Assembly: GCF_004358105.1 (NCBI RefSeq)
Contig: NZ_SMYL01000016.1
Location: 1-55,128 of the forward strand
Direction: 5' to 3'
Length of the DNA: 55,128 nucleotides
From: Sapientia aquatica
GTDB lineage: Bacteria; Pseudomonadota; Gammaproteobacteria; Burkholderiales; Burkholderiaceae_D
Part shown: piece by piece, positions 20,177 to 35,373 of the stretch
Layout: each line of letters starts with the position of its first letter
How positions within the stretch are numbered: the stretch's first letter is position 1
Position numbers and translations under genes: made by a program
Notes under the pieces: generated by a model
Seen by the model: only the letters and a program-made list of their open reading frames with translations
Databases searched by the model: none
What the model was told of the DNA's origin: nothing

Positions 20177-22846
20177 CTAAAACTTAACCCGCGCGCCCGC
20201 ATAAATCATCATCCCGTTTTTATATACGCCGGTAACTTGGCTGGTATCGGTGACGTAGGTTTTGAGCAGTGGATCGTTTAAGTTTTGTGCCGAAAACGTT
20301 AGGGCGACATTGCTGTTTAGATTGTAGTTAGCCGAAAAATTGAGTGAGCCATTTCCGTTTTGGAAGTAATCATTGCCGCCGCGATTGCCTAGTTTATAGG
20401 TCGTGCGATACGTCCAAGAAAGCCGTGCGCTAAAGCGGTCGTTTTCGTAGTACGCGCCCAGGTTATAGGAATCCTTGGACGTGCCGTACAAGGAACAATC
20501 TTGCGTCGCTGAGCCATTGCAAGTGCCATTAGCCAGCACAGACGTTTGCTTACCGTTGGCGTAGGTGTAATTAGCGAGCACACCAAAGCCTGACTCAAAG
20601 CCTTGTTCGTAGGCCAAATTGACGCCCTTGATATTGCCATCGGCATTGACTGGCATCGACATGCTGTACGGCATGATCGCATTGCCTTGCGCTTGGTTTT
20701 CAAACGGCATGTTTTGATGGGTGTACGAAATCACGCCCTGCAATTTGCTGTAATACAAACCAGCTGACAACATCGACTTTGGCGCGAAATACCATTCCAA
20801 CGAACCGTCGATATTATTGCTGCGGATCGGTTTGAGATAAGGATTGCTGCCCACGCCGGTTCGTTGCAAGTCTTCTAATGTCACGCCCGCCAATTGCCCA
20901 AAGTCGGGGCGTGACATGCCGCGATTCAAGGCCAGCCGACCGACTAAGCGCGGCGTTAAATCGAAGCGTAAGTTAAGGCTGGGTAACACATCGACAAAGC
21001 TATTATCGTATTCCGGCAAGCCGCCGGGTAAGAACGCGACGATGTCTTCGCTAGTGCGAACTACCCGCACGCCGACGTTACCCGAGACGCTTTCCTGCGG
21101 CAGTAAGTTGGCCATGACATAGGCCGCCGCGGTGTTTTCTTTGATGTTAAAACTCGATTGCACCGAGCGCTTATCAAAGCTGCCGTGTTGCGCTAGCCAA
21201 GACATGACATAGGCATTGCTGATCTTAAAGGGTCTAAATCCAGGCGTCGGATTGGTGGGCAGTTTTCCATACCAATCGGAGTCGTAATTTTGGATTGCCG
21301 AGACCGGAATCTGTGTTTCGTCGCTCGAGCCCGGTGCAAGCGATAGTTGCGTGACACTTAAATTGCGTTCATGGCGGGCAAAGCGGGTTCCAAATTGGAT
21401 GGATGGAACAGCCTCAAAGGCCAGCTTTAATGTGCCATCGACTTGGCCATAATTTTCCGAATCGTCTGAACGGTTGTAACTGCCCCAGCCACCAATTCCA
21501 TAACCGCCCGGCACAAATTTATCGCCGCCCGGAACGTTAAGAACCAAGATGCCGTTGGAATCTTGGGTGTATCCCGCGCCTTGGTTCCACGCGCTGGCGA
21601 CTTCGAAGCCAACGTCAGTGGTTTTTCCGCTGCCGAGCGTGCGGCCGAGTTTGCTGCTTAAGGTAAGGTCTTTATTGACCACCCATTTCGCATCCAAATT
21701 AATAAAACGTGAATCGGTGCGCGCGTCGGGGCGAATTGCGACATCCTCAATAACCGAGTAAGCGCCTGCGTTGTTGCCGCCGAACGAATTAGGGCCAAAA
21801 AAAATCGAGGTAATTGTGTTGCCCACTTTATTAACCGTAATTGGATTGGCTGGATTCTGGTTCCAGCCGGGCCCGTTGAAGCCGTTAATCGTGCTGGCCA
21901 TAAAGTTGGTATTAAAGTTCTGCGCATCCATGACCGAACTAAAGCCCGATAAATCTAACGTAATGTTGTTTTGCGGTTTCCATTGCGCTTCTAAATAACC
22001 ACCTTGGCGCTTACGCTTTTGTTCGAACAACACCGCGCCGCTTAAATAACTGGCCTTCGCTCCATCGAGCGACGCATTGGGCTGATTGGCCGGCACGGTA
22101 TCCCACCAAATACCCTCGGAACCTGCGCGGCGTAGGCTGCGTTCCTGCGAAAAGATTTGCGCCAAAAGCCCGAAAGTGTTGCTGTCATTTTTCCAGTTAA
22201 CCAAGGCGCTGACACTCGGATCGGTTTTTTTGGACGCGGAGCCATATGCGCCCTCAACCGTTGCTGAGAAGGTCAGTTTTTGCGGAAACGATAATGGCTT
22301 GCGAGTATCAATATCCACCGTTCCTGCTGCACCACCTTCAATCAAATCTGCCTGTGCCGATTTGTACACCGTAATTTGTCCAACTAAGTCCGATGGCAAC
22401 AAGGTGTAGCTCACGCTGCGACCGCCCGCCGCGATGTTGGGGCCGAACCAGTCGCCGCTTGAGACGCTGTGTCCGTTCAAGGTAGTGAGTGTGAATTGTG
22501 ACGACAACCCGCGCATCTGTACGTGCTCATTTTCACCGAACGATCCCTCGGACGAACCAGCGCTGGTGGTGGTGACTCCCGAGACGCGGGAAAGCGAGTC
22601 GGCCACGTTTTTATCGGGCATTTTGCCGATATCTTCGGCGGTGATGATCTCGACCAAGGCTTCGTTTTCGCGCTTTTGGTTGAGTGACTTTTGCATGGAA
22701 GCGCGCACTCCCGTTACGATAATTTGCTCGACAGGTTCTGACGGGGTGGAGGCTGGCGGCGCTTGTTGGGCCTGCGTCGGCGCGCACAGCGTGAGCGCAA
22801 ACATGGCGCTGATGCCAGCGGCGATCGGGGTTGGTTTATAGGTCAT
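20177..22846 (-). CDS. TonB-dependent receptor, GlcNAc/chitin-oligosaccharide regulon
   Basis: This 889-residue outer-membrane receptor has a signal peptide ending near TQAQQ, a TonB-box region (EQIIVTGVRASMQKSLNQKRENEALVEIITAEDIGKMP is the typical start for the Xanthomonas/Caulobacter-type receptor family), a plug domain, a 22-strand barrel region and a C-terminal strand ending in an aromatic residue (GMMIYAGARVKF). AAGGAG lies 7 bases before the ATG. Its promoter carries the same upstream box as nagK and the second receptor, so it is predicted to import N-acetylglucosamine-containing oligomers. The ligand is inferred from regulation and neighbourhood, not from the protein. Confidence 0.93.
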   Translation of the reverse strand: MTYKPTPIAAGISAMFALTLCAPTQAQQAPPASTPSEPVEQIIVTGVRASMQKSLNQKRENEALVEIITAEDIGKMPDKNVADSLSRVSGVTTTSAGSSEGSFGENEHVQMRGLSSQFTLTTLNGHSVSSGDWFGPNIAAGGRSVSYTLLPSDLVGQITVYKSAQADLIEGGAAGTVDIDTRKPLSFPQKLTFSATVEGAYGSASKKTDPSVSALVNWKNDSNTFGLLAQIFSQERSLRRAGSEGIWWDTVPANQPNASLDGAKASYLSGAVLFEQKRKRQGGYLEAQWKPQNNITLDLSGFSSVMDAQNFNTNFMASTINGFNGPGWNQNPANPITVNKVGNTITSIFFGPNSFGGNNAGAYSVIEDVAIRPDARTDSRFINLDAKWVVNKDLTLSSKLGRTLGSGKTTDVGFEVASAWNQGAGYTQDSNGILVLNVPGGDKFVPGGYGIGGWGSYNRSDDSENYGQVDGTLKLAFEAVPSIQFGTRFARHERNLSVTQLSLAPGSSDETQIPVSAIQNYDSDWYGKLPTNPTPGFRPFKISNAYVMSWLAQHGSFDKRSVQSSFNIKENTAAAYVMANLLPQESVSGNVGVRVVRTSEDIVAFLPGGLPEYDNSFVDVLPSLNLRFDLTPRLVGRLALNRGMSRPDFGQLAGVTLEDLQRTGVGSNPYLKPIRSNNIDGSLEWYFAPKSMLSAGLYYSKLQGVISYTHQNMPFENQAQGNAIMPYSMSMPVNADGNIKGVNLAYEQGFESGFGVLANYTYANGKQTSVLANGTCNGSATQDCSLYGTSKDSYNLGAYYENDRFSARLSWTYRTTYKLGNRGGNDYFQNGNGSLNFSANYNLNSNVALTFSAQNLNDPLLKTYVTDTSQVTGVYKNGMMIYAGARVKF

Positions 22847-23299
22847 TGCGTGTCTCCTTCTACGTTAACTCTGGTGTGCAAAGCGATGCTGGCGCATTGA
22901 ATTGCTCGCTTAAATCAATTAAAAAGCCTACAAAAATTTCCAATTTATATTGATTTAAAATTAACTTTATGGGCGTCAGGAAGCGATGTCAACCGGTATC
23001 AAACTGGTATTAGACGCATGCGCAACGAAGTTGCAGTGGCGAAAAAGTTAACTTTTAAGTGATTGATTGAGTAGGGTATTTAACAGTTCTGCAATCAAGC
23101 AAATAGGCGGTGGTATTACGAGGACGGTGGCAAAATTGCCCGGCTTTTAATGTCCGCCGCCTGAACGGGAGAAAAGTATAGAAAGGTAAATTGGGTTGTG
23201 CCTGACATGGGCTTAAGCTACGATCCACTGTCTTGGCGCGTCGGCGCATGAGCGCGGGCGGCAGTAGCACGATGTGATGATTATTCAGCGAGGTATTAA
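22847..23299. other. Divergent intergenic region between receptor 1 and the glutamine cyclotransferase
   Basis: This 453-base region holds the receptor promoter at 22964-23011. The part from 23012 to 23299 shows no recognisable gene or box; the promoter for the plus-strand gene should lie here but was not identified. Confidence 0.4.
22964..23011 (-). promoter_or_regulatory. Promoter with nag-regulon box, receptor 1
   Basis: Read on the minus strand: AATACCA (23005-23011), 5 bases, ATACC (22995-22999), 2 bases, TTGACA (22987-22992), 17 bases, TAAAGT (22964-22969). The same order and spacing occur at 24393-24440 and 30127-30174. The predicted transcript has a leader of roughly 110 bases. Confidence 0.8.
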
Positions 23300-24392: not shown

Positions 24393-24440
24393 AATACCAC
24401 GTAGATACCGCTTGACAACCACTTTTGTCATATTTAAAGT
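24393..24440 (+). promoter_or_regulatory. Promoter with nag-regulon box, receptor 2
   Basis: AATACCA (24393-24399), 5 bases, ATACC (24405-24409), 2 bases, TTGACA (24412-24417), 17 bases, TAAAGT (24435-24440). The -35 is perfect and the arrangement is the same as in the other two copies. Transcription from here would give a leader of about 205 bases before the receptor ATG at 24652. Confidence 0.85.
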
Positions 24441-24651
24441 TGCCATCAGTCATTTAACTTTTTTAACGGAAACGTTTGAACGAGAAGGAATGATTTGCTT
24501 TAGGGGGGTGGACATCAAATTCATTTTTGATGAGGTGGTACAGGTAGGCTTTGGCACAGGTAACTTGATAGTCGGTAAGTTAACGTGGCTAGAGTCTAAA
24601 AATCAAAAAACAGGTCTGACATAGTTCAAGACCATCATGGATGGGGATCAA
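24441..24651 (+). other. Long 5' leader of receptor 2
   Basis: About 205 bases lie between the predicted transcription start and the receptor start codon. I see no known riboswitch or strong hairpin. A possible 44-codon reading frame starting at 24490 has its purine-rich site (GAAGGA) directly abutting the ATG, too close for normal initiation. The rest of the gap upstream (24095-24392) holds only the terminator. Confidence 0.4.
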
Positions 24652-27321
24652 ATGAAAAAAAATCTAACACCAATAGCATCGGCAGTCGCCATGTTGACCT
24701 TGAGCATTGCCGCTCAAGCGCAACAAGTAGATCAGACAACACAACCAGATCAAGCGTCGCAAGTGGTTGTAACTGGTATTCGTGCTTCGATGCAAAGTGC
24801 AGTCAATATCAAGCGTAATTCTGACGCGGTAGTTGACGCCGTATCGGCCGAAGATATCGGTAAATTGCCGGACACTGATGTGGGTGAAACATTGGGCCGT
24901 ATTCCTGGCGTATCCGTTGGTCGTCAATTCGGCCAAGGTTCAGCCGTTTCGGTACGTGGCTCCGATCCACAAATGACCTACACAACATTGAATGGTCAAA
25001 CGATTGCGTCAACGGGTTGGTACGATCAAAAATCAGTCGATCGTTCATTCAACTATTCTTTGCTGCCTTCTTCATTAATCGGCGGTATCGATGTATATAA
25101 ATCTTCCCAAGCAGATTTGACTGAAGGCGGTATCGGCGGAACAGTTATTGTTAAGTCGAGAAAGCCATTGGACATGGATGCCAACAGCGGCTTCCTGTCA
25201 GCTGGCGTGGGTAAAGGCAGCATCAGTACCGACCCAGATAAAAGTATTTCAGGTTTATATAGCTGGAAAAACGATGCACACACATTCGGCGTTTTAGTCG
25301 CTGGTGCAGTGGATCACGGTACTTATATCCGCCGTGGTTTGGAATCTGACACAACGTGGTCTAACGACGTTGAGCCAAGTACTTTTGTGCAAGATCGTAA
25401 AACTTCAGCGTTTAATATCGATTTGCAAGCCAAGCCAACCCGTGAATTGGACATGGATTTGAACTACCTGCGTTTGGTTCAACATGCAGACAACTCCAAC
25501 ACTAACCAATATCTGTTCCAAAGCGATAGCTTCTGCACATCGAAAAATGCGGCAGGCGTTTGTACCACAAGTAACACACCAACTGGCTTGCCAGCTAGCT
25601 CGTACAGCGCACCATTCTTGCAAACGTGGGCTCGTGGCGCGGAAATGAATTCCGACACGCTCACATTTAACTCGCATTACAAAGGCAATGGTTTCCGTTT
25701 AGACGGCGTAATCAATACGACGAAATCGGACGGTGGTACGACTGAAACGACTAACTATTCCTACTTCAACGGTTGGCCAGCACTGAGCGCTACTAATCCA
25801 TATCCTAACGTGGCATCGAGCTTGCCAGTATGGACAGGTACAATCAATGCGACTGGTCACACCTTATTGGTAAACCCATCGACTAACCAAAGCGTTTCAT
25901 TGGCGAACTTGCCAGCAATGGAAGCTCCACAAGGTGCTTGGGCAACATCAAAAGGTCCTAACGAAGACAAAGAAAATGCCTTCCAAGTTGATTTGACCAT
26001 GGATCTGGATTCGTATGGTTTGACATCATTCAAAACCGGTGTGCGCTACTCGCAACACACCTTCTCGAAAGATTCCTACCAAGGCGTTTTCGCGAGCACA
26101 TTCGCAACTAACCCAGTAACAGTGCCAACTTCGTCGCTGTACAGCGGCACGATCGCTTTGGGCACACCGGGCTGGTCAGTACCAAAACCAAACGTTGGCG
26201 CGATGTTGGCTAACACCAATGCCAATATTACTGGTTGGGCAGAAGAGCGTTCTGGCTACGGTAAGCTGGAAGAGGACAACACAGCCTTGTACGGTATGTT
26301 CGATTTTGCACACGAAAAATACCACGGTAACTTTGGTCTGCGCTACGTCGGTACAAACGCAACCGGTACCGCCTACGCTTTCGACGGCACCAATATTGCA
26401 GGTGATATCGGCGCGAATGCAGGTTGGAACACCAAGAAAATTTCGAACTCAGCAACCTATCACTACGTATTGCCAAGTTTGAACGTTGCCTACGACATCG
26501 ACAAGAACACCATTGCTCGCTTTACTGCATCGCAAGCAATTACTCGTCCAAACTTCGACAACATGTTCTTGTATAACGAAGCTGGTTACCAAGACACGAT
26601 CGCTGGCAATGAAATTTTCACCAAAGGCAGCGTTGGTCTGAAGCCTCAAATGGCTAGCCAGTTCGATTTGGGCTTGGAATATTACTATGGCAAAGGTAAC
26701 TTGTTAGCAGCAACTTACTACCATAAAAACATCAACAACTTCATCACGACCAATACAGCAATCAACCAATCGATTGGTGTAGTCAGCCCAGACAGCGGTA
26801 AAGATAGCTGGACTGTTAATCAGTACGTGAATGCAGGTGGTGGTCGTATCGATGGTTTGGAATTGCAAGCTAGCCACTCGTTTGACAATGGCTTCGGTGT
26901 TTCAGCGAACTACACGTTGATCAATGCTGTTGCGCCAAAATCGAGCTATGCGGATGAACTCAACTTGTTTACTCAGTCGTCGAAAAATAACGCCAACTTA
27001 GTAACCTACTGGCAAAACTCCCAATACTTTGCGCGTTTAGCTTATAACTACCGTTCAGAGTACATGGTGCGTGAAACTGGTTACTACGGTAATCGTATGC
27101 AACAAGGTTATGGCCAGTTAGATGCAAGTGCTGGTTGGAACATCACTCCAAAAGTTCGTTTGGTGTTTGAAGCGACTAACCTGACCAAAGCCAACGATGT
27201 GGAATACGGTGTAGCACCAGTTGACGCCAAACTGTCTAGCCCAGCGCAGAAATTAGGCTACCCAGCATGGTCTTACTTAGGTGAAGCAACTTACAAAGTA
27301 ACACTCAGCGCCAAGTTCTAA
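24652..27321 (+). CDS. TonB-dependent receptor, GlcNAc/chitin-oligosaccharide regulon
   Basis: This outer-membrane receptor of about 889 residues has a signal peptide (KNLTPIASAVAMLTLSIAAQA), a TonB-box/plug start (SQVVVTGIRASMQSAVNIKRNSDAVVDAVSAEDIGKLPD), a plug region with SVRGSDPQMTYTTLNGQ, a long barrel and a C-terminal strand TYKVTLSAKF. ATG at 24652 is chosen because GGGGA lies just upstream. It is related in plan to receptor 1 but clearly divergent in the barrel, so the two probably take different oligomers. Codon use is more biased than in neighbouring genes (frequent GGT, CGT, AAC), which suggests high expression. Confidence 0.94.
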   Translation: MKKNLTPIASAVAMLTLSIAAQAQQVDQTTQPDQASQVVVTGIRASMQSAVNIKRNSDAVVDAVSAEDIGKLPDTDVGETLGRIPGVSVGRQFGQGSAVSVRGSDPQMTYTTLNGQTIASTGWYDQKSVDRSFNYSLLPSSLIGGIDVYKSSQADLTEGGIGGTVIVKSRKPLDMDANSGFLSAGVGKGSISTDPDKSISGLYSWKNDAHTFGVLVAGAVDHGTYIRRGLESDTTWSNDVEPSTFVQDRKTSAFNIDLQAKPTRELDMDLNYLRLVQHADNSNTNQYLFQSDSFCTSKNAAGVCTTSNTPTGLPASSYSAPFLQTWARGAEMNSDTLTFNSHYKGNGFRLDGVINTTKSDGGTTETTNYSYFNGWPALSATNPYPNVASSLPVWTGTINATGHTLLVNPSTNQSVSLANLPAMEAPQGAWATSKGPNEDKENAFQVDLTMDLDSYGLTSFKTGVRYSQHTFSKDSYQGVFASTFATNPVTVPTSSLYSGTIALGTPGWSVPKPNVGAMLANTNANITGWAEERSGYGKLEEDNTALYGMFDFAHEKYHGNFGLRYVGTNATGTAYAFDGTNIAGDIGANAGWNTKKISNSATYHYVLPSLNVAYDIDKNTIARFTASQAITRPNFDNMFLYNEAGYQDTIAGNEIFTKGSVGLKPQMASQFDLGLEYYYGKGNLLAATYYHKNINNFITTNTAINQSIGVVSPDSGKDSWTVNQYVNAGGGRIDGLELQASHSFDNGFGVSANYTLINAVAPKSSYADELNLFTQSSKNNANLVTYWQNSQYFARLAYNYRSEYMVRETGYYGNRMQQGYGQLDASAGWNITPKVRLVFEATNLTKANDVEYGVAPVDAKLSSPAQKLGYPAWSYLGEATYKVTLSAKF

Positions 27322-27417: not shown

Positions 27418-28149
27418 TTAATCAGGTTCGTTAAAATCAAAAAATGAATTTAGTGTTAGCCGACCTTTGCTCGGATTATCGGTCAAACTAATCGCCGGAT
27501 TCACGCAAGCCGAATGCAACAAACTGCCATGATAAATCACCAAGCGATTAAATTTCGCTGGAATCATTCCCAAGAACGTGTACCGCTCATCGGACTTATC
27601 AAAATAACGCTGCTTTGGTAGTTGGGCGTTAATCTCTTGGTAGGACACATCCAAATAATGCTCTCGATTGTCTGCCGTGATTTGTTGAAAACCGGTGGCG
27701 TTGTGCCGATAAAAACCCGTTCCGCCATGACTTTCATCACAAAGATACAGCAGCACCGCAAAATGATGCGGCGTGCTGGAATCAAAATGCGGAATTCGCT
27801 GCAACGGGCCTAATTCCTCCGGCTGCATCGTCGTGAGTGAATAAGCGCAAATGCTTTTGCGGAAGTCCACATGTTGAGGCACATTAAAATTGGCTTTAAT
27901 CAGCGGCTCAACTAAGCCGGCCAAGACGCTGGAATACGTCGCAGGCGCTTCGGCGCGAATTCCCGGATAGCCTTTTTTATCCTCAAATTTTGGATAAGGC
28001 GTAAATTGATTTTGCAGTGCAACGGCGTCGGCAACCAAGGCTTGCGGATTTTCCAAAAAATTATCCACCACGATTGCGTGGTGATTGCCAATTTGGATCG
28101 AGCCAATATCGGGCGGCATCCGAATGGCAAAGGCTACGGGTTGGCTCAT
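27418..28149 (-). CDS. DUF6445-family protein, putative Fe(II)/2-oxoglutarate dioxygenase-like
   Basis: This 243-residue protein has no characterised function. It shows a plausible double-stranded beta-helix metal triad: HFD near residue 121 (IPHFDSSTPHHFAVLLYL), a distal His in VIYHGSLLHSAC, and an Arg in KGRLTLNSFFDF at the position that would bind 2-oxoglutarate. That is the H-x-D...H...R order of Fe(II)/2-oxoglutarate oxygenases. The start lies one base after the halogenase stop codon, with TTAGGATGAT just upstream, so the two genes are co-translated. The enzymatic class is inferred from motif order only. Confidence 0.75.
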   Translation of the reverse strand: MSQPVAFAIRMPPDIGSIQIGNHHAIVVDNFLENPQALVADAVALQNQFTPYPKFEDKKGYPGIRAEAPATYSSVLAGLVEPLIKANFNVPQHVDFRKSICAYSLTTMQPEELGPLQRIPHFDSSTPHHFAVLLYLCDESHGGTGFYRHNATGFQQITADNREHYLDVSYQEINAQLPKQRYFDKSDERYTFLGMIPAKFNRLVIYHGSLLHSACVNPAISLTDNPSKGRLTLNSFFDFNEPD

Positions 28150-28150
28150 A

Positions 28151-29680
28151 TCATCCTAATGAGAGTTGATACGCTGCGTTAAATCGCTCTAACCAATCGC
28201 GGTGACCGAGCAATTCTTTCAGCAATTTTTCTTCCCGCAACCGCACCTCAGCGATTTCCCGATGAAAGAACTGCTGTTCGTAATCCGTCATATTTTTCGG
28301 CTTGGTGGCGTACTTCATTCCGTACAGCACAAACAAAAAGTTATCGACGTTAAACAAATCAAAGCGGCTAAAAAAATCGGTCTGTTTGGGCGGATGATAG
28401 CGCCACATTTCGAACCGTTCCGCCAACACATCCGAGCGCGGTGTTTCTTCGGTATTGATGCGCCAAAATTCCGAATCGCGTCGGTCAGAAATGCAGTAAT
28501 GCATCTGCACAAAATCAATCACCCGTTCCCACGCATAGTTGGCCACTTTATTGCAGTAATTGGCGGCAATCGACATCGATTCACGTTCAACGCAAAAATT
28601 GCGCGCAAATAATTCGGCGGTGAAATCGGTGACAAAAATCGAGGTCGCTTCGAGTGGCTCAACAAAGCCTTGTGCCAAGCCCAACGCCACCACATTTTTG
28701 CACCAGAATTTTTCTCGGTAACCCATACGCATCGGAATCTTACGTGGTGAAAATTGATCGACATCGAGCTGTAAATAGCGGCTCATATTTTCCACTGCCG
28801 CCTCTTCGCTCATGTGCGCGCTGGAATACACGAAACCGATGCCGCGCCGAGTGGTGAGCGGAATATCCCAAATCCATCCCGCCGAATGCGCGGTCGCCAA
28901 TGTGTAGGGCGCAATGTCGACTTTATCGTCAGTCGGCAATTGCACCGCCAGTGCGCTGTCGGTGAGCAATTGATTCGATTTATTGACAAAGGGTACGTTG
29001 AGCAATTTACCCAACAGCAGCGAATGAAATCCTGAGCAATCAACATAAAAATCGTAATGCAAGTGCTCGCCTTCTTTGGTAATCAAATACGCAATCTCAC
29101 CTTGCTCATTCAATTTTGCATCAACGATGGTGGCGGACAGATGTTTTACGTTTAGACGTTCGCGTGCATTTTTAGATAATAGTTTTCCGAACTTTACCGC
29201 GTTGAAATGGTAGGCATAATTGACGACGCCTTCATACGGTGCGGATGAAACTTTTTTGGGCGCTTTCATCGCATCCGCCAAGGCTGCAACTTCGGTTACT
29301 TCGGCGAAGTTCATGTGTTGTGGATTGCTCAAATAACGCGCTGTCACATCGACGCCACCCGGGAAAGGCGAAGTGAACGGGTGGTAATAGCTGTTACTCG
29401 GATTGGCTGCGGATGGATTCATCCAATTACTAAATTTAATTCCTTTTTTAAAGGTAGCGTCGCAAGTGGCAAGCAATTCAGCTTCAGAAATGCCGAATTT
29501 CATTAGCGACTTTTTAATATGCGGAACAGTTCCTTCGCCCACGCCAATGATGCCAATTTCAGGCGATTCAATGACGGTAATAGTGATGTCGGTTTCGGCA
29601 CGCAGTTCAACAGCCAAATGATTTGCTGCCAACCAGCCTGCGGTACCACCACCAATGATGACGATGTTGTTAACTTTCAT
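28151..29680 (-). CDS. Flavin-dependent tryptophan halogenase-family protein
   Basis: This 509-residue protein has the length of tryptophan 7-halogenases. The FAD-binding VIIGGGTAGWLAA opens it, IIGVGEGTVPHIKKSL follows near residue 45, then the lysine-bearing FKKGIKFSNWM near residue 80 where the catalytic Lys lies in this family, and GWIWDIPL, the W-x-W-x-I-P hallmark of flavin halogenases, near residue 269. Such proteins are often found beside TonB receptors for carbohydrates in Caulobacter, Xanthomonas and relatives, where their role is unknown. FADH2 would come from a separate reductase; none is next to it. Whether it halogenates anything cannot be said. Confidence 0.9.
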   Translation of the reverse strand: MKVNNIVIIGGGTAGWLAANHLAVELRAETDITITVIESPEIGIIGVGEGTVPHIKKSLMKFGISEAELLATCDATFKKGIKFSNWMNPSAANPSNSYYHPFTSPFPGGVDVTARYLSNPQHMNFAEVTEVAALADAMKAPKKVSSAPYEGVVNYAYHFNAVKFGKLLSKNARERLNVKHLSATIVDAKLNEQGEIAYLITKEGEHLHYDFYVDCSGFHSLLLGKLLNVPFVNKSNQLLTDSALAVQLPTDDKVDIAPYTLATAHSAGWIWDIPLTTRRGIGFVYSSAHMSEEAAVENMSRYLQLDVDQFSPRKIPMRMGYREKFWCKNVVALGLAQGFVEPLEATSIFVTDFTAELFARNFCVERESMSIAANYCNKVANYAWERVIDFVQMHYCISDRRDSEFWRINTEETPRSDVLAERFEMWRYHPPKQTDFFSRFDLFNVDNFLFVLYGMKYATKPKNMTDYEQQFFHREIAEVRLREEKLLKELLGHRDWLERFNAAYQLSLG

Positions 29681-30126: not shown

Positions 30127-30174
30127 AATACCACTTAAATACCTATTGACAGCCACTTGTGAAGCGAATAAAGT
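30127..30174 (+). promoter_or_regulatory. Promoter with nag-regulon box, nagK operon
   Basis: AATACCA (30127-30133), 5 bases, ATACC (30139-30143), 2 bases, TTGACA (30146-30151), 17 bases, TAAAGT (30169-30174). It has the same plan as the two receptor promoters. It would drive nagK, the GntR regulator, nagA and the deaminase, which makes the regulator autoregulated. Confidence 0.85.
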
Positions 30175-30274: not shown

Positions 30275-31180
30275 ATGACAAATCAAATTACGCATTTAAT
30301 CGGTGTTGATGGCGGTGGAACGGGTACGCGGGTGGCTGTGGCGGATGCCAATGGAGTTGAATTTGCGCGCGGAATCGCCGGTCCATCAGGCTTGATTAAT
30401 GGTGCGGATGCTGCGTGGGTTTCCATTCTCAATGCGATTAACGATGCGTTTGCTAGCGTCCATTTAGTGCGCCCAGATTTGTCCAACGTTGGTATTGGCT
30501 TGGGTTTGGCGGGTGTGCATAACAAGCAATGGGCGGCGCAGTTTGCCGATAAAAACCCTGGCTTTGGTTTGTTTCAACTAGCCACCGATGCCTATACCAC
30601 CGTCATGGGTGCGCATCAGGGCAAGCCGGGCGGAATCGTAGCCATTGGAACCGGTAGCGTGGGTGAAGCATTACTGCCCGATGGTAATCACCTTGAGGTC
30701 GGCGGCTGGGGTTTTCCTTGTGGCGATGAAGCCGGTGGCGCTTGGATTGGCATGCGTGCTATCAACCATATTCAGCAAGTAATTGACGGCAGGGCAGAGG
30801 CCAGCGCGTTTTCGGCGGCGGTGATTGAACATTGCGGAGGGCATAAAGACGCGGTGTTTAACTGGCTCGCCAACGCCAATCAAGGCAGTTACGCGCAGTT
30901 AGCGCCTATCGTGATTAAGTTTGCCAATCAAGAAAAAAATGCGGTGGTCGAGCAAATTATGCAGGAAGCCGGGCGGGAAATTGCTAAAATTGCGCTCGCG
31001 TTGGATAAGACCAATTCATTACCGATTGCGTTATGCGGTGGCTTAGCAAAACCATTGGAAAAATATCTGCCGGCAGACTTATTAAGTCGGGTGGTTCCCC
31101 CTCATGGAGATTCGGCATCAGGTGCATTGTTGCTGATAAAAAAAATTAAAGAAGGCACACATGTTAAGTCCGTTAACTGA
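30275..31180 (+). CDS. nagK: N-acetylglucosamine kinase (BadF/BadG/BcrA/BcrD ATPase family)
   Basis: This protein of about 301 residues phosphorylates cytoplasmic N-acetylglucosamine to the 6-phosphate. The ASKHA-fold motifs are clear: phosphate-1 loop LIGVDGGGTGTRVAVAD at the N-terminus, AIGTGSVGEALL, GGWGFPCGDEAGGAWIG, and adenosine motif IALCGGLAKPLE. ATG at 30275 is preferred because the first strand starts four residues later; an in-frame GTG at 30242 cannot be excluded, since neither has a strong ribosome site. It is the first gene of the nag operon and overlaps the regulator gene by 20 bases. Confidence 0.9.
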   Translation: MTNQITHLIGVDGGGTGTRVAVADANGVEFARGIAGPSGLINGADAAWVSILNAINDAFASVHLVRPDLSNVGIGLGLAGVHNKQWAAQFADKNPGFGLFQLATDAYTTVMGAHQGKPGGIVAIGTGSVGEALLPDGNHLEVGGWGFPCGDEAGGAWIGMRAINHIQQVIDGRAEASAFSAAVIEHCGGHKDAVFNWLANANQGSYAQLAPIVIKFANQEKNAVVEQIMQEAGREIAKIALALDKTNSLPIALCGGLAKPLEKYLPADLLSRVVPPHGDSASGALLLIKKIKEGTHVKSVN

Positions 31181-31895
31181 TTTCAAGCCAGACAGCGACA
31201 GCGCGACACCGCTTTATCTGCAATTAGCCAATAAATTAGCGACTGCTATTCATGGCGGTATTTGGCAGCCAGACGAAGCCTTGCCGTCCGAACGCACGTT
31301 GTCGGATCAATTGTCGATTTCACGCGTAACAGCGCGTAAAGCGATAGACATGTTATGCGAGCGCGGACTGCTTACACGCAAACAAGGTTCAGGCACTTTC
31401 ATCACACCAAAGTTAGAACAACCTTTATCGCGCCTGACGAACTTCAGTGAAGAATTACGCCAACGCGGTTTTTTGCCGGGTTCGCAATGGTTGTCGCGTG
31501 AAACCGGTGTCGCGGCACCGGAAGAAATTTTGTCTTTAGGTTTGTCACCCAATACGGTGGTATCGCGTCTGAAACGGTTGCGCACGGCAGACAATGTAGT
31601 GATGGCGATTGAAAGCAGCACGATTCCTTCGCAATATTTACCGAACCCAAAATTAGTCACCGATAGTTTGTACAACTATCTGGACGCCAATGGCGCTGCG
31701 CCGACACGCGCACTGCAACATATTCGCGCTGTAAATGCTACCGCCGAGCAAGCCAAATTAGCCGGCATTAAGCAAGGTGCCGCGATGCTGTTTATTACCC
31801 GCGTTGGCTATCACGCTAACGGCACCGCAATCGAACTCACGCATTCGTATTGCCGCAGTGATTACTATGACTTTGTGGCGGAGTTGTTTAGATGA
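31161..31895 (+). CDS. nagR: GntR/HutC-family transcriptional regulator of GlcNAc use
   Basis: This 244-residue regulator has an N-terminal winged helix typical of GntR proteins (PLYLQLANKLATAIHGGIW, then LPSERTLSDQLSISRVTARKAIDMLCERGLLTRKQGSGTFI) and a C-terminal UTRA ligand domain ending in LTHSYCRSDYYDFVAELFR. DasR, NagQ and NagR regulators that sense GlcNAc-6-P or GlcN-6-P have this build. GAAGG precedes the ATG; the gene overlaps nagK and, by ATGA, nagA. It is the obvious candidate to bind the box in front of both receptors and nagK. The symbol is by context; equivalents in other genera are called nagQ. Confidence 0.88.
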   Translation: MLSPLTDFKPDSDSATPLYLQLANKLATAIHGGIWQPDEALPSERTLSDQLSISRVTARKAIDMLCERGLLTRKQGSGTFITPKLEQPLSRLTNFSEELRQRGFLPGSQWLSRETGVAAPEEILSLGLSPNTVVSRLKRLRTADNVVMAIESSTIPSQYLPNPKLVTDSLYNYLDANGAAPTRALQHIRAVNATAEQAKLAGIKQGAAMLFITRVGYHANGTAIELTHSYCRSDYYDFVAELFR

Positions 31896-33061
31896 GTGGA
31901 AAAAATCAAGCCGTGCAACACGCCACGTTAGTCACCAAGGCCGATCAAATCGCATCCCAATTAAGCGGCAATATTTTGACACCGCAGGGCTGGGTGTTGG
32001 GCGCGGTGACGTTCAATCAACGCATCAATGCGATTGAGGGCGCATCGGTTGATCCGGCATCGAATACGCAGCATTATATTCTGCCCGGCTTCATCGATTT
32101 GCATGTGCATGGCGCGGGTGGCAAAGACACCATGGAAGCGGGCGACGCAACCCAAGTCATTGCGCGCATGCATGCCCAGCACGGCACCACCAGTTTGCTC
32201 GCCACCACTATGACAGCGCCGTTATCCGATTTAGAGCAGGCCTTGCAAGGCATAAACCGTGCGATTACGCAGCATCAACCCGGCATGGCGCGGATTTTGG
32301 GTGTGCATTTAGAAGGCCCGTACATCAATCCCGGCAAGCTAGGCGCGCAACCGGATTACGCTCAAAAAGCGACGCTAAGCGATGTACAAAAATTGGACGC
32401 GATTGCGCCGATTAAACTCATTACCGTAGCGCCAGAAATCGAAGGTCATTTAGAGTTGGTAAAGCAACTCACCGCAATTGGCATGAAGGTGCAATTGGGT
32501 CACACGCTCGGTACCTACGAAGAAGGCGTTGCTGCGCTCGAAAACGGCGCGGCCGGATTTACCCATTTATTTAATGCCATGACGCGCTTGGATCATCGTG
32601 CGCCGGGCATGGTTGGTGCAGCCTTGGCGCACGCCAATTATTCCGAAATTATTCCTGATTTGTTGCATGTGCATCCAGGTGCGATTAAAGCTGCTATGCG
32701 CGCTATTCCGCACCTATATTGCGTGACCGATTCGACCGCGGCTTCTGGCATGCCTGATGGCCAATATATGCTGGGGCGGCAACAAGTTCATAAATGCCAA
32801 GGTGGGGTGCGGTTAGCCGATGGAACATTGGCGGGCAGCACATTAACCATGGATCAAGCTTTACGTAATTTAGTCAGTATCGGCCTCGATTTGGCCGACG
32901 CATCAAAACGAGTTTCTACCTTTGCGGCCGACTATTTAGGTGTAACAGAACGTGGACGTTTGCAAGCGCAAGCGTATGCCGATTTCGTGGTGTTGGACCG
33001 CGATCTAAATTTAATAGCCGTCTATGTTGAAGGAGAAAAAATTGACCTCGTTAATGCATAA
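31892..33061 (+). CDS. nagA: N-acetylglucosamine-6-phosphate deacetylase
   Basis: This 389-residue amidohydrolase-fold enzyme turns GlcNAc-6-phosphate into glucosamine 6-phosphate and acetate. Visible active-site elements are the metal motif DLHVHGAGGKDTME, LEGPYINPGKLGA with the metal-binding Glu, VQLGHTLGTYEEG, FTHLFNAMTRLDHRAPG, and the catalytic Asp in YCVTDSTAASGMPDG. It starts within an ATGA overlap with the regulator gene. Length and motif order are standard. Confidence 0.96.
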   Translation: MSGKNQAVQHATLVTKADQIASQLSGNILTPQGWVLGAVTFNQRINAIEGASVDPASNTQHYILPGFIDLHVHGAGGKDTMEAGDATQVIARMHAQHGTTSLLATTMTAPLSDLEQALQGINRAITQHQPGMARILGVHLEGPYINPGKLGAQPDYAQKATLSDVQKLDAIAPIKLITVAPEIEGHLELVKQLTAIGMKVQLGHTLGTYEEGVAALENGAAGFTHLFNAMTRLDHRAPGMVGAALAHANYSEIIPDLLHVHPGAIKAAMRAIPHLYCVTDSTAASGMPDGQYMLGRQQVHKCQGGVRLADGTLAGSTLTMDQALRNLVSIGLDLADASKRVSTFAADYLGVTERGRLQAQAYADFVVLDRDLNLIAVYVEGEKIDLVNA

Positions 33062-34064
33062 GGAAGCCTGTTCTTCCGCTGAATTTGTCGCCAAACAATT
33101 AACGCAAGAAGGTGCCCGCTTTGCCGAATTAGGTAATGCACTGCGCTCCAATCCACCGACTTCCGTGCTGACGATTGCGCGCGGTAGTTCTGATCATGCC
33201 GCTGCTTATGCGGCGTATTTGATCATGTCGCGGTTAGGTAAAATTGTTGCCTCATTGCCGATGTCGTTGGTGACATTGCTCAATGCACCGTTACAAGCAA
33301 AAAATGCCTTGGCAATTGCGATTTCACAATCCGGCCAAAGCCCGGACGTAATTGAGCCGATTCGTTATTTCCGCGAAGGTGGTGCGACTACCGTGGCTTT
33401 GGTCAACGATGCCAATTCACCGTTAGCAACCAGCGCTCAATGGTGCATGCCCTTGCATGCGGGTGCCGAATTAAGTGTTGCGGCGACCAAGAGTTTTATA
33501 ACGAGTTTAGTCGCTGCTGCACAGCTCGCCGGCCATTGGCAAAACGATCCCGAATTTTTGGCTGCATTGGCAGATTTACCTGCTTCACTGGCCGCCGCCA
33601 CTGACATTGATTGGTCTGAAGCGATCGACGTGTTAACGCCGGCGAATAACATCATGGTGGTCGGTCGCGGTATCAGTTTCCCGATCGCGCTGGAATCAGC
33701 GTTAAAGTTTAAAGAAACCTCAGCCATCCAAGCAGAAGCGTTTAGCGGTGCGGAAATCAAACATGGCCCAATGGCCTTGATCGATGATGGTTACCCATTA
33801 ATGATCTTTGCAACGCGTGGCCCAACGCAAGCCGGTTTGATTAAATTAGCTGAAGAAATGCGTGGTCGCGGTGCGCGGGTATTGTTGGCGGCGCCTGCTG
33901 ATATTAGCGAACGTAATTTGACTATTCCTGTCGCGGCTACGCCGGATTTGGATCCTATCGTTGCGATTCAGGCGTTCTACGTGATGGCGGCAAAGTTGTC
34001 GTTAGCGCGTGGCTTGAATCCAGATAAGCCACGTCATTTGAGTAAAGTGACTAAGACTAACTAA
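33042..34064 (+). CDS. nagB2: SIS-domain glucosamine-6-phosphate deaminase (NagB-II type)
   Basis: This protein of about 340 residues has two SIS domains and no glutaminase domain, the build of NagB-II/AgaS-like deaminases that replace classical NagB in many proteobacteria. It should convert glucosamine 6-phosphate to fructose 6-phosphate and ammonia. Motifs include TIARGSSDHAAAYAAYLI, AISQSGQSPDVIEPIRYF, SVAATKSFITSLV and the second-domain VGRGISFPIALESALKFKE. TTG at 33042 is favoured because GGAG lies 6 bases before it; the ATG at 33054 is the alternative. It overlaps the end of nagA. Confidence 0.9.
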   Translation: MTSLMHKEACSSAEFVAKQLTQEGARFAELGNALRSNPPTSVLTIARGSSDHAAAYAAYLIMSRLGKIVASLPMSLVTLLNAPLQAKNALAIAISQSGQSPDVIEPIRYFREGGATTVALVNDANSPLATSAQWCMPLHAGAELSVAATKSFITSLVAAAQLAGHWQNDPEFLAALADLPASLAAATDIDWSEAIDVLTPANNIMVVGRGISFPIALESALKFKETSAIQAEAFSGAEIKHGPMALIDDGYPLMIFATRGPTQAGLIKLAEEMRGRGARVLLAAPADISERNLTIPVAATPDLDPIVAIQAFYVMAAKLSLARGLNPDKPRHLSKVTKTN

Positions 34065-34302: not shown

Positions 34303-35373
34303 ATGGCTCGATACTCTTCTATAGATGCTCTGCGCGGTTTGACTGTCGCGGCGATGTTATTGGTAAATAACGCGGGCGACTGGGATCACGTTTATCCTTG
34401 GTTGGAGCATGCTGAATGGAATGGATGCCATCCAGCCGATTTCATCTTCCCGTTTTTTCTATTGATCGTCGGCGTTTCGCTCAGCTTAGCGCTGAGTTCG
34501 ATCACGGCGCCAAAGCCCGGTGCGGTGATTGATTTAGCTAAGGCGAAAAAATCGGTCGTGTTGCGCGGTGGGCGCATAATTTTGCTGGGCATTGCCTTGC
34601 ATGTGATCGCGATGTTGCTCATCGATGGTCGAGCTTTTCGCTTATTTGGCGTATTGCAGCGAATTGGGATTTGCTTTTCAGTCGTGGGGTTGGTGCATTT
34701 AACGTTTCAGAGTGCGCGTATTCAGTGGGGAATAATCGCCGCGATATTGATCGGCTATTGGGCCTTGCTGCGCGGAGTGTATGTGCCGGAGCTCAATTTA
34801 GCTGACAAAGTCGATACCGCTCTGCTCGGCAAGCTTGCTTATCAATTTGATCCCGCCACCAAACTCGCGCACGATCCCGAAGGAATACTGAGTACCTTGC
34901 CATCGATAGCCACCGTGTTATTGGGCGTGCGTGCTGGTGAATGGCTGCGTCGAGGTCAGTTACGCCAGTTGCTTATCGCGGGCGTTGTGGCGATTGCGTT
35001 GGGTGGATTGTGGTCGTTAGATATGCCGCTCAATAAACAACTGTGGACGTCTTCGTTCGTGTTGTGGACGGGCGGGTTTGGTATCTTGGCACTGTGCCTC
35101 ATGCACTATTTGATTGACCAAAAAAATTGGCCGGCCATTGGTAGAAGCTTTGGTATTAACGCGATTGCTGCGTATGCGGGTTCGTGGATTGGGATTTGTA
35201 TTTTGTACGGGACGGGCTTGTTCGAAGTGATTTATCAACGCGGTGTCGCGCCATTATTTGCTACATCGGTGAGCCCAGAATTTGCGTCGATGATGTTTTC
35301 GATTGGCTTCACGTCGGTATTTGCGGTGATTCTAAAGATCATGGCGCTACGCGGATGGCGCATCGTAATTTAA
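34303..35373 (+). CDS. nagX: NagX-like multi-pass membrane protein (HGSNAT-related, DUF5009)
   Basis: This 356-residue inner-membrane protein has about ten hydrophobic segments. It opens with RYSSIDALRGLTVAAMLLVNNAGDWDHVYPWLEHAEWNGCHPADFIFPFFLLIVG, the signature of the heparan-alpha-glucosaminide N-acetyltransferase-like family that sits in many bacterial nag clusters as nagX. In the human relative a His in this first loop accepts the acetyl group; a His is present here (WNGCHPAD). Its bacterial function is not settled. It follows the operon terminator and has its own, unidentified promoter, with only a half nag box (AATACCA, 34274-34280) in front. Confidence 0.88.
   Translation: MARYSSIDALRGLTVAAMLLVNNAGDWDHVYPWLEHAEWNGCHPADFIFPFFLLIVGVSLSLALSSITAPKPGAVIDLAKAKKSVVLRGGRIILLGIALHVIAMLLIDGRAFRLFGVLQRIGICFSVVGLVHLTFQSARIQWGIIAAILIGYWALLRGVYVPELNLADKVDTALLGKLAYQFDPATKLAHDPEGILSTLPSIATVLLGVRAGEWLRRGQLRQLLIAGVVAIALGGLWSLDMPLNKQLWTSSFVLWTGGFGILALCLMHYLIDQKNWPAIGRSFGINAIAAYAGSWIGICILYGTGLFEVIYQRGVAPLFATSVSPEFASMMFSIGFTSVFAVILKIMALRGWRIVI

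Follow-up and report, generated by a model that had tools for sequence, protein, structure and literature searches.

A predicted NagQ regulon for N-acetylglucosamine scavenging in an Oxalobacteraceae genome, with operator boxes at a fixed distance from the -35 element

Three copies of a composite promoter in the analysed window (the whole stretch of 55,128 nucleotides) are very probably the operator-promoter units of a NagQ regulon for N-acetylglucosamine (GlcNAc) scavenging in an Oxalobacteraceae bacterium, a reading for which we infer the DNA binding, the repression and the inducer; the same regulon probably also serves the scavenging of chitin fragments. The system is already known in kind, and the original prediction was correct in its observation and largely correct in its interpretation. 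The fresh detail is that the spacing between box and -35 element does not vary at all among the related genomes analysed.

The unit of TonB receptor 1 lies on the minus strand at 22964..23011 (box 22995-23011, -35 TTGACA 22987-22992, -10 TAAAGT 22964-22969) and its third repeat is degenerate. The other two units are on the plus strand. At 24393..24440, ahead of TonB receptor 2, the box (24393-24409) and the -35 (24412-24417) are followed by a third in-phase repeat (ACAACCACTTT, 24415-24425) and by the -10 TAAAGT at 24435-24440; at 30127..30174, ahead of the nagK-nagQ-nagA-nagB operon, the corresponding elements are the box (30127-30143), the -35 (30146-30151), the third in-phase repeat (ACAGCCACTTG, 30149-30159) and the -10 TAAAGT (30169-30174). 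All three promoters were found where they had been placed, strand included, with zero mismatches, and TTGACA, the N17 spacer and TAAAGT are identical among them. Their origin by chance was ruled out, as the composite pattern was absent at up to three mismatches from all 100 dinucleotide shuffles of the window. The period of the repeat, given before as 12 bases, needs correction: measured from start to start it is 11 bp (ATACC at 30128 and 30139), and the 11-bp AATACC..ATACC arrangement is present in all five sites of the genome described below, the second copy being partly without its outer letters.

The genes had also been thought to share no other sequence around the promoter. This holds for the flanks (120 bp upstream and 112 bp downstream), whose identity is 0.19-0.33 in all ten pairs of the genome's five sites, but not for the -35/-10 spacer, where a CCACTT is common to the sites at 24393 and 30127. 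The flanks also bear on the idea that the promoters resemble each other as copies of a duplicated cassette, without shared control, to which the identical -35 and -10 hexamers of the three window sites would lend themselves; flank identity at background level in the ten pairs largely refutes such a duplication, more than one site is found in several family genomes as well, and we consider it extremely improbable.

The gene families in the window were assigned by Pfam and NCBIfam profile searches. Both TonB-dependent receptors (receptor 1, 20177..22846, minus strand; receptor 2, 24637..27321, plus strand) match TIGR01782 TonB-Xanth-Caul above the cut-off, as does nagA, encoding N-acetylglucosamine-6-phosphate deacetylase (31892..33061, plus strand), for TIGR00221. 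The names nagK, nagB and NagX come from scores below equivalog cut-offs and stand for three plus-strand genes: the N-acetylglucosamine kinase of the BadF/BadG family (nagK, 30275..31180; NagK_SO3507, 182.7 bits, cut-off 370), a nagB-II-like SIS-domain glucosamine-6-phosphate deaminase (33024..34064; NagB_SO3506, 287 bits, cut-off 430) and an HGSNAT_cat/NagX-like transmembrane N-acetyltransferase (34303..35373; NagX_SO_3504, 116.5 bits, cut-off 480), which lies about 240 bp past nagB and has no box of its own. The gene for the NagQ-like GntR/HutC regulator with a UTRA domain (31161..31895, plus strand) is inside its presumed target operon. Between receptor 2 and the nag operon lie, on the minus strand (27418-29680), a tryptophan-halogenase-like gene and a DUF6445 gene, neither with its own box.

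The regulator matches the Pfam families GntR (3.1e-18) and UTRA (1.9e-34), with 17 residues ahead of the GntR domain. Among the best 80 of 219 loci, its nearest named relatives are from an Oxalobacteraceae MAG (95%), Solimicrobium silvestre (93%) and Undibacterium (77-89%), and among solved structures the best relatives are those of B. subtilis NagR/YvoA (E 4e-43). The base-reading residues of NagR, named in the available passages of PMC4333415 as Arg38, Arg48 and Gly69, align with R45, R55 and G76 of the regulator and are invariant in eight aligned homologues. At the effector site 10 of 15 residues are identical to NagR (R133, R135, S165, Y167, F89, E145, R211, E222, I209 and S226) and five are not (T90S, I166L, S88N, A224T and Y228C), these differences, among them Tyr228 to Cys231, counting against the assignment to NagQ. 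B. subtilis NagR differs in its sites, which are near-palindromic dre sites according to the same passages (PMC4333415), whereas the repeats found here are direct; the palindromic dre-type layout, with inverted half-sites and 4 nt between GT and AC, was not found, the main half-sites being direct at 11 bp. The candidate put forward by the original prediction was of the right kind, since it is a GntR/UTRA protein that keeps the base-reading residues of NagR and co-occurs with the box across the family. Judged from its sequence, the regulator looks NagQ-like and its site looks like that of NagQ.

In the genome (4.43 Mb, 58 contigs, 98.28% complete), the full composite pattern, searched with the -10 fixed at spacing 17, occurs at five sites, all with zero mismatches; no further site was found across the 4.43 Mb at up to three mismatches, and the reversed control gave two. 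The box with the -35 alone recovered the same five sites at 0-2 mismatches, together with five extra matches at three mismatches (reversed control, 3), four of them within ORFs (L011, L013, L014 and L015) and one (L012) just upstream of an ORF read as MerR-like; these were taken as noise because they are lost under the full pattern. The exact AATACCA-N5-ATACC is found once without TTGAC, at C54:41383, within an ORF.

Beyond the window, one site precedes a NagX-like/DUF5009 gene, whose NagX match is weak (29.8 bits, cut-off 480), and the other a gene for a GH3 beta-N-acetylhexosaminidase (240 bits, cut-off 207). All five sites therefore precede GlcNAc-related genes, namely the two TonB receptors, nagK-nagQ-nagA-nagB, the NagX-like gene and the beta-N-acetylhexosaminidase, several of these names coming from scores below the model cut-offs, and the predicted GlcNAc regulon of five sites holds. 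The expectation that genome-wide matches would precede chitinase, hexosaminidase, transporter and nag genes was borne out for the nag genes, the TonB receptors and the beta-N-acetylhexosaminidase, but not for chitinase. The sole GH18 gene found in the genome (G000:C11:691155-692363), about 5 kb upstream of the boxed DUF5009 gene, has no recognisable box, the best match in its 4.2-kb locus having five mismatches, and no GH20 gene was found in the genome; membership of a chitinase in the regulon was rejected on these grounds, and the boxless GH18 gene is counted against NagQ.

Across the family the box accompanies the regulator. When the same set of 195 family genomes was scored both for the box with TTGAC and for a NagQ match (E 1e-85 or better), 58 had both, 4 the box only, 14 NagQ only and 119 neither (Fisher 5e-31, a value that ignores kinship). 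The table varies with stringency, a looser pattern finding two boxes in G056, counted as NagQ only, and one in G078, counted as neither. Eight of the 14 NagQ-only genomes belong to one genus (g29), and in L127, a locus of one such genome, a box with two mismatches lies 2 bp from TTGACA; three named Collimonas loci (L051-L053) carry the same kind of box, about one mismatch off the consensus. In the 80 named loci (the best 80 of 219, 1.395 Mb in all), the 1600 bp ahead of the nagQ match include a coding-strand box with TTGAC in 74 cases at up to one mismatch and in 2 more at two mismatches, while 4 have no such box upstream (L036 and L066, with only 575 and 183 upstream bases, L049 and L057); at least one box with TTGAC is found anywhere in the locus in 78 of the 80. 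The four box-only genomes and G078 are counted against NagQ, and so are the two NagQ-like proteins, mostly of about 71-75% and 57-60% identity, in 30 of the 72 family genomes with a match, each protein being a candidate binder. Nine genomes that have only the kind of about 57-60% identity at the threshold (e.g., G003, G011 and G019) still carry the box.

According to the excerpts of PMC4494728, NagQ binds direct TGGTATT repeats; those of PMC5343134 call its motif tandem repeats, give the regulon a core of nagA and nagB, add nagK and chitin genes for Reinekea, and place NagQ in alpha-, beta- and some gammaproteobacteria. Both accounts, in these excerpts, rest on Yang et al. 2006. Given the regulator family, the published NagQ motif and the fact that AATACCA is TGGTATT reversed, we filed the system as a NagQ regulon. 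It shares with the published one, as there excerpted, the regulator family, tandem TGGTATT half-sites, the nagA/nagB core, nagK or chitin genes in some genomes and the occurrence in betaproteobacteria; the fixed 2 bp between box and -35, like the third element, is in contrast absent from the published descriptions examined, in the parts available. PMC5343134 makes no mention of Oxalobacteraceae in its main text. That a direct-repeat site would be unusual for a GntR protein is true of the GntR family in general but not of NagQ, for which direct repeats are the published form in the portions consulted of PMC4494728 and PMC5343134. In Xanthomonas, nagK and TonB receptors are assigned to a LacI-type NagR in the relevant passages of PMC5343134, whereas here they carry NagQ-type sites; this difference, too, is counted against NagQ.

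PMC4494728, in its available part, also lists GabR with direct ATACCA repeats, so that the box might belong to another reader of such repeats, e.g., a MocR/GabR-type protein, and lie close to nagQ incidentally. We hold this to be very unlikely, as the targets are GlcNAc-related at all five sites and the box both tracks nagQ over the 195 genomes and stands upstream of the nagQ match in the great majority of the named loci.

The distance between the box and the -35 was the same throughout. With gaps of 0-12 bp allowed, the gap between box and TTGAC was exactly 2 bp in 77/77 family matches (62 of 195 genomes; reversed control, 0), and in the 80 named loci TTGAC lies at +2 in 82/82 exact boxes, which were not filtered for TTGAC, and in 21 of 34 one-mismatch boxes. 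The other 13 include L055, a longer array matched in a shifted register, and L092, in which TTGAT lies at +3. In L055 (8982-9018, from an Undibacterium MAG) one more unit precedes the usual pair, so that three AATAC-type repeats stand ahead of the -35. From the 103 boxes with TTGAC at +2 (82 exact and 21 with one mismatch) and the five of this genome, minus those more than 80% alike, 28 non-redundant sites were obtained, in which the conservation of TTGAC is no evidence because the sites were chosen to have it. A -10 (TAnnnT) is found at spacing 17 in 22 of them and at spacing 18 in 5, 27/28 together, and conservation drops upstream of the box and past the -10. The -35 is TTGACA or TTGACG in the family sites. 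No statement of a fixed -35 register was found in the available passages of the literature matches listed, and we do not claim that the register is unpublished.

Such a strict distance exceeds the need of simple steric repression and is counted against NagQ as we read it; it is also the main argument for a different mode of action, in which NagQ or a paralogue would be a class II-like activator bound just upstream of the -35 and contacting RNA polymerase. Activation would explain why the 2-bp register is invariant (77/77 and 82/82) when the -35/-10 spacer is 17 or 18. Typical activator-dependent promoters are unlike those with a good -35 and a good -10, and here TTGACA or TTGACG is combined with a good -10 in 27/28 sites. 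In addition, opposite-strand -35-like motifs face four tandem pairs of family f162 (below), a position that would be odd for an activator, and published accounts present both B. subtilis NagR and E. coli NanR as repressors (PMC4333415 and PMC8012715, in the parts available). We judge activation to be unlikely and keep repression by NagQ as the preferred reading.

Beyond the two main half-sites, CCACTT (at least 5/6 letters) is found in phase at +26 in 17 of the 28 non-redundant family sites; at the other offsets from -18 to +66, besides the box's own copy at +4, it was found at most three times each. A CC pair recurs in this way at positions 4-5, 15-16 and 26-27, the complement of the GG that is read by two arginines in NagR. 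In 3 of the 28 sites the third repeat is replaced by an inverted TGGTAT-type element (5/6 letters) at +28, and in this genome it is clear in only two of the five sites, at 24393 and 30127. Weak extra half-sites close to palindromic GntR sites have already been reported (PMC4494728). Eight loci (L030, L032, L035, L038-L041 and L043) have a second box kilobases upstream of the nagQ-side box, where an inverted TGGTATT just past the -35 (AATACC-N11-GGTATT) replaces the direct third repeat.

Outside the family, the box with TTGAC was not found in its exact family form in 369 class and 300 order genomes. In the class sample (369 genomes) this genome and five others match, the five having different spacings throughout (reversed control, 3); in the order sample (300 genomes) three genomes outside the family match, again with different spacings, and there are eleven matches inside it, five of them from this genome, all with spacing 2. 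Homologues 41-61% identical to the regulator are found outside the family in a phylum sample, many of them beside 11-bp tandem pairs. The 29 loci of this sample (L127-L155, of which L127 and L137 belong to the family and have no pair) hold 38 such pairs in 22 loci. TTG[AT]C lies at +2 in 12 of the 38 (one TTGAC and eleven TTGTC), at +13 in 2 and at +22 in 1; GTCAA lies at +2 in 4, each from family f162, and neither motif is at +2 in 22. Several f256 loci have tandem pairs followed by TAGCCA or TTACCA, without TTG[AT]C. In two f162 loci (L128 and L131) two tandem arrays face each other, one abutting TTGACA or TTGATA at +2 and the other GTCAA, i.e., a -35-like motif of the opposite strand. The +2 register is shared in part outside the family and is not universal.

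A refinement of the preferred reading is that box and -35 form one recognition sequence: TTGACA would lie inside a three-repeat NagQ operator, the same bases being read by NagQ and by sigma-70, so that hexamer and operator could not drift apart. The presence of TTGAC at +2 in every one of the 82 unfiltered exact boxes, the in-phase CCACTT and, outside the family, the eleven TTGTC and one TTGAC in the same place argue for it. Against it, 8 of these 12 outside pairs come from one genus (g497) and the support amounts to three families in all, the third repeat is clear at a minority of this genome's sites and inverted at a few of the family's, several f256 pairs are without TTG[AT]C, and the exact box within an ORF of this genome has no TTGAC. 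An inseparable composite of three 11-bp repeats, kept in exact register in Oxalobacteraceae and with TTG[AT]C at +2 in some other Proteobacteria, is a tentative proposal that we rate at somewhat less than an even chance.

For repression by NagQ, which is inferred from homologues, the following sequence of events may be proposed; the literature searched yielded neither binding nor expression results for this organism. NagQ (31161-31895) would bind direct TGGTATT half-sites at 11 bp, about one helical turn, read as AATACC...ATACC along the coding strand. The array borders the -35 and, with the weaker third repeat, would run over it, from about -54 to -22 if the -10 is set at -12 to -7, so that bound NagQ would cover the -35, block sigma-70 region 4 and exclude RNA polymerase. 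When GlcNAc enters, NagK would make GlcNAc-6-P, and GlcNAc-6-P (or GlcN-6-P) would free the DNA, turning on both receptors, nagK-nagQ-nagA-nagB (nagQ itself included), the NagX-like gene and the beta-N-acetylhexosaminidase. The best working analogue, though not a family match, is E. coli NanR, likewise a GntR-type repressor of sugar-uptake genes with direct GGTAT-type repeats, which binds its (GGTATA)3 operator cooperatively with one dimer per repeat (PMC8012715, in the part available). NanR differs in belonging to the FadR subfamily (PMC4494728) and in having its operator downstream of the polymerase site (PMC8012715), both as given in excerpt, and its cooperativity depends, in the same excerpt of PMC8012715, on a 32-residue N-terminal extension, against the 17 residues before the GntR domain here.

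Most deserving of experiment are the invariant register and the third repeat in its 11-bp phase. The fixed register of operator and -35 would offer a clean case for studying how direct repeats over a core promoter element serve a protein of the HutC type, whose members usually bind palindromes. For the organism, the analysis gives a five-site NagQ regulon prediction for an Oxalobacteraceae genome, in which the two TonB receptors would be tied to the uptake of GlcNAc or chitin fragments.
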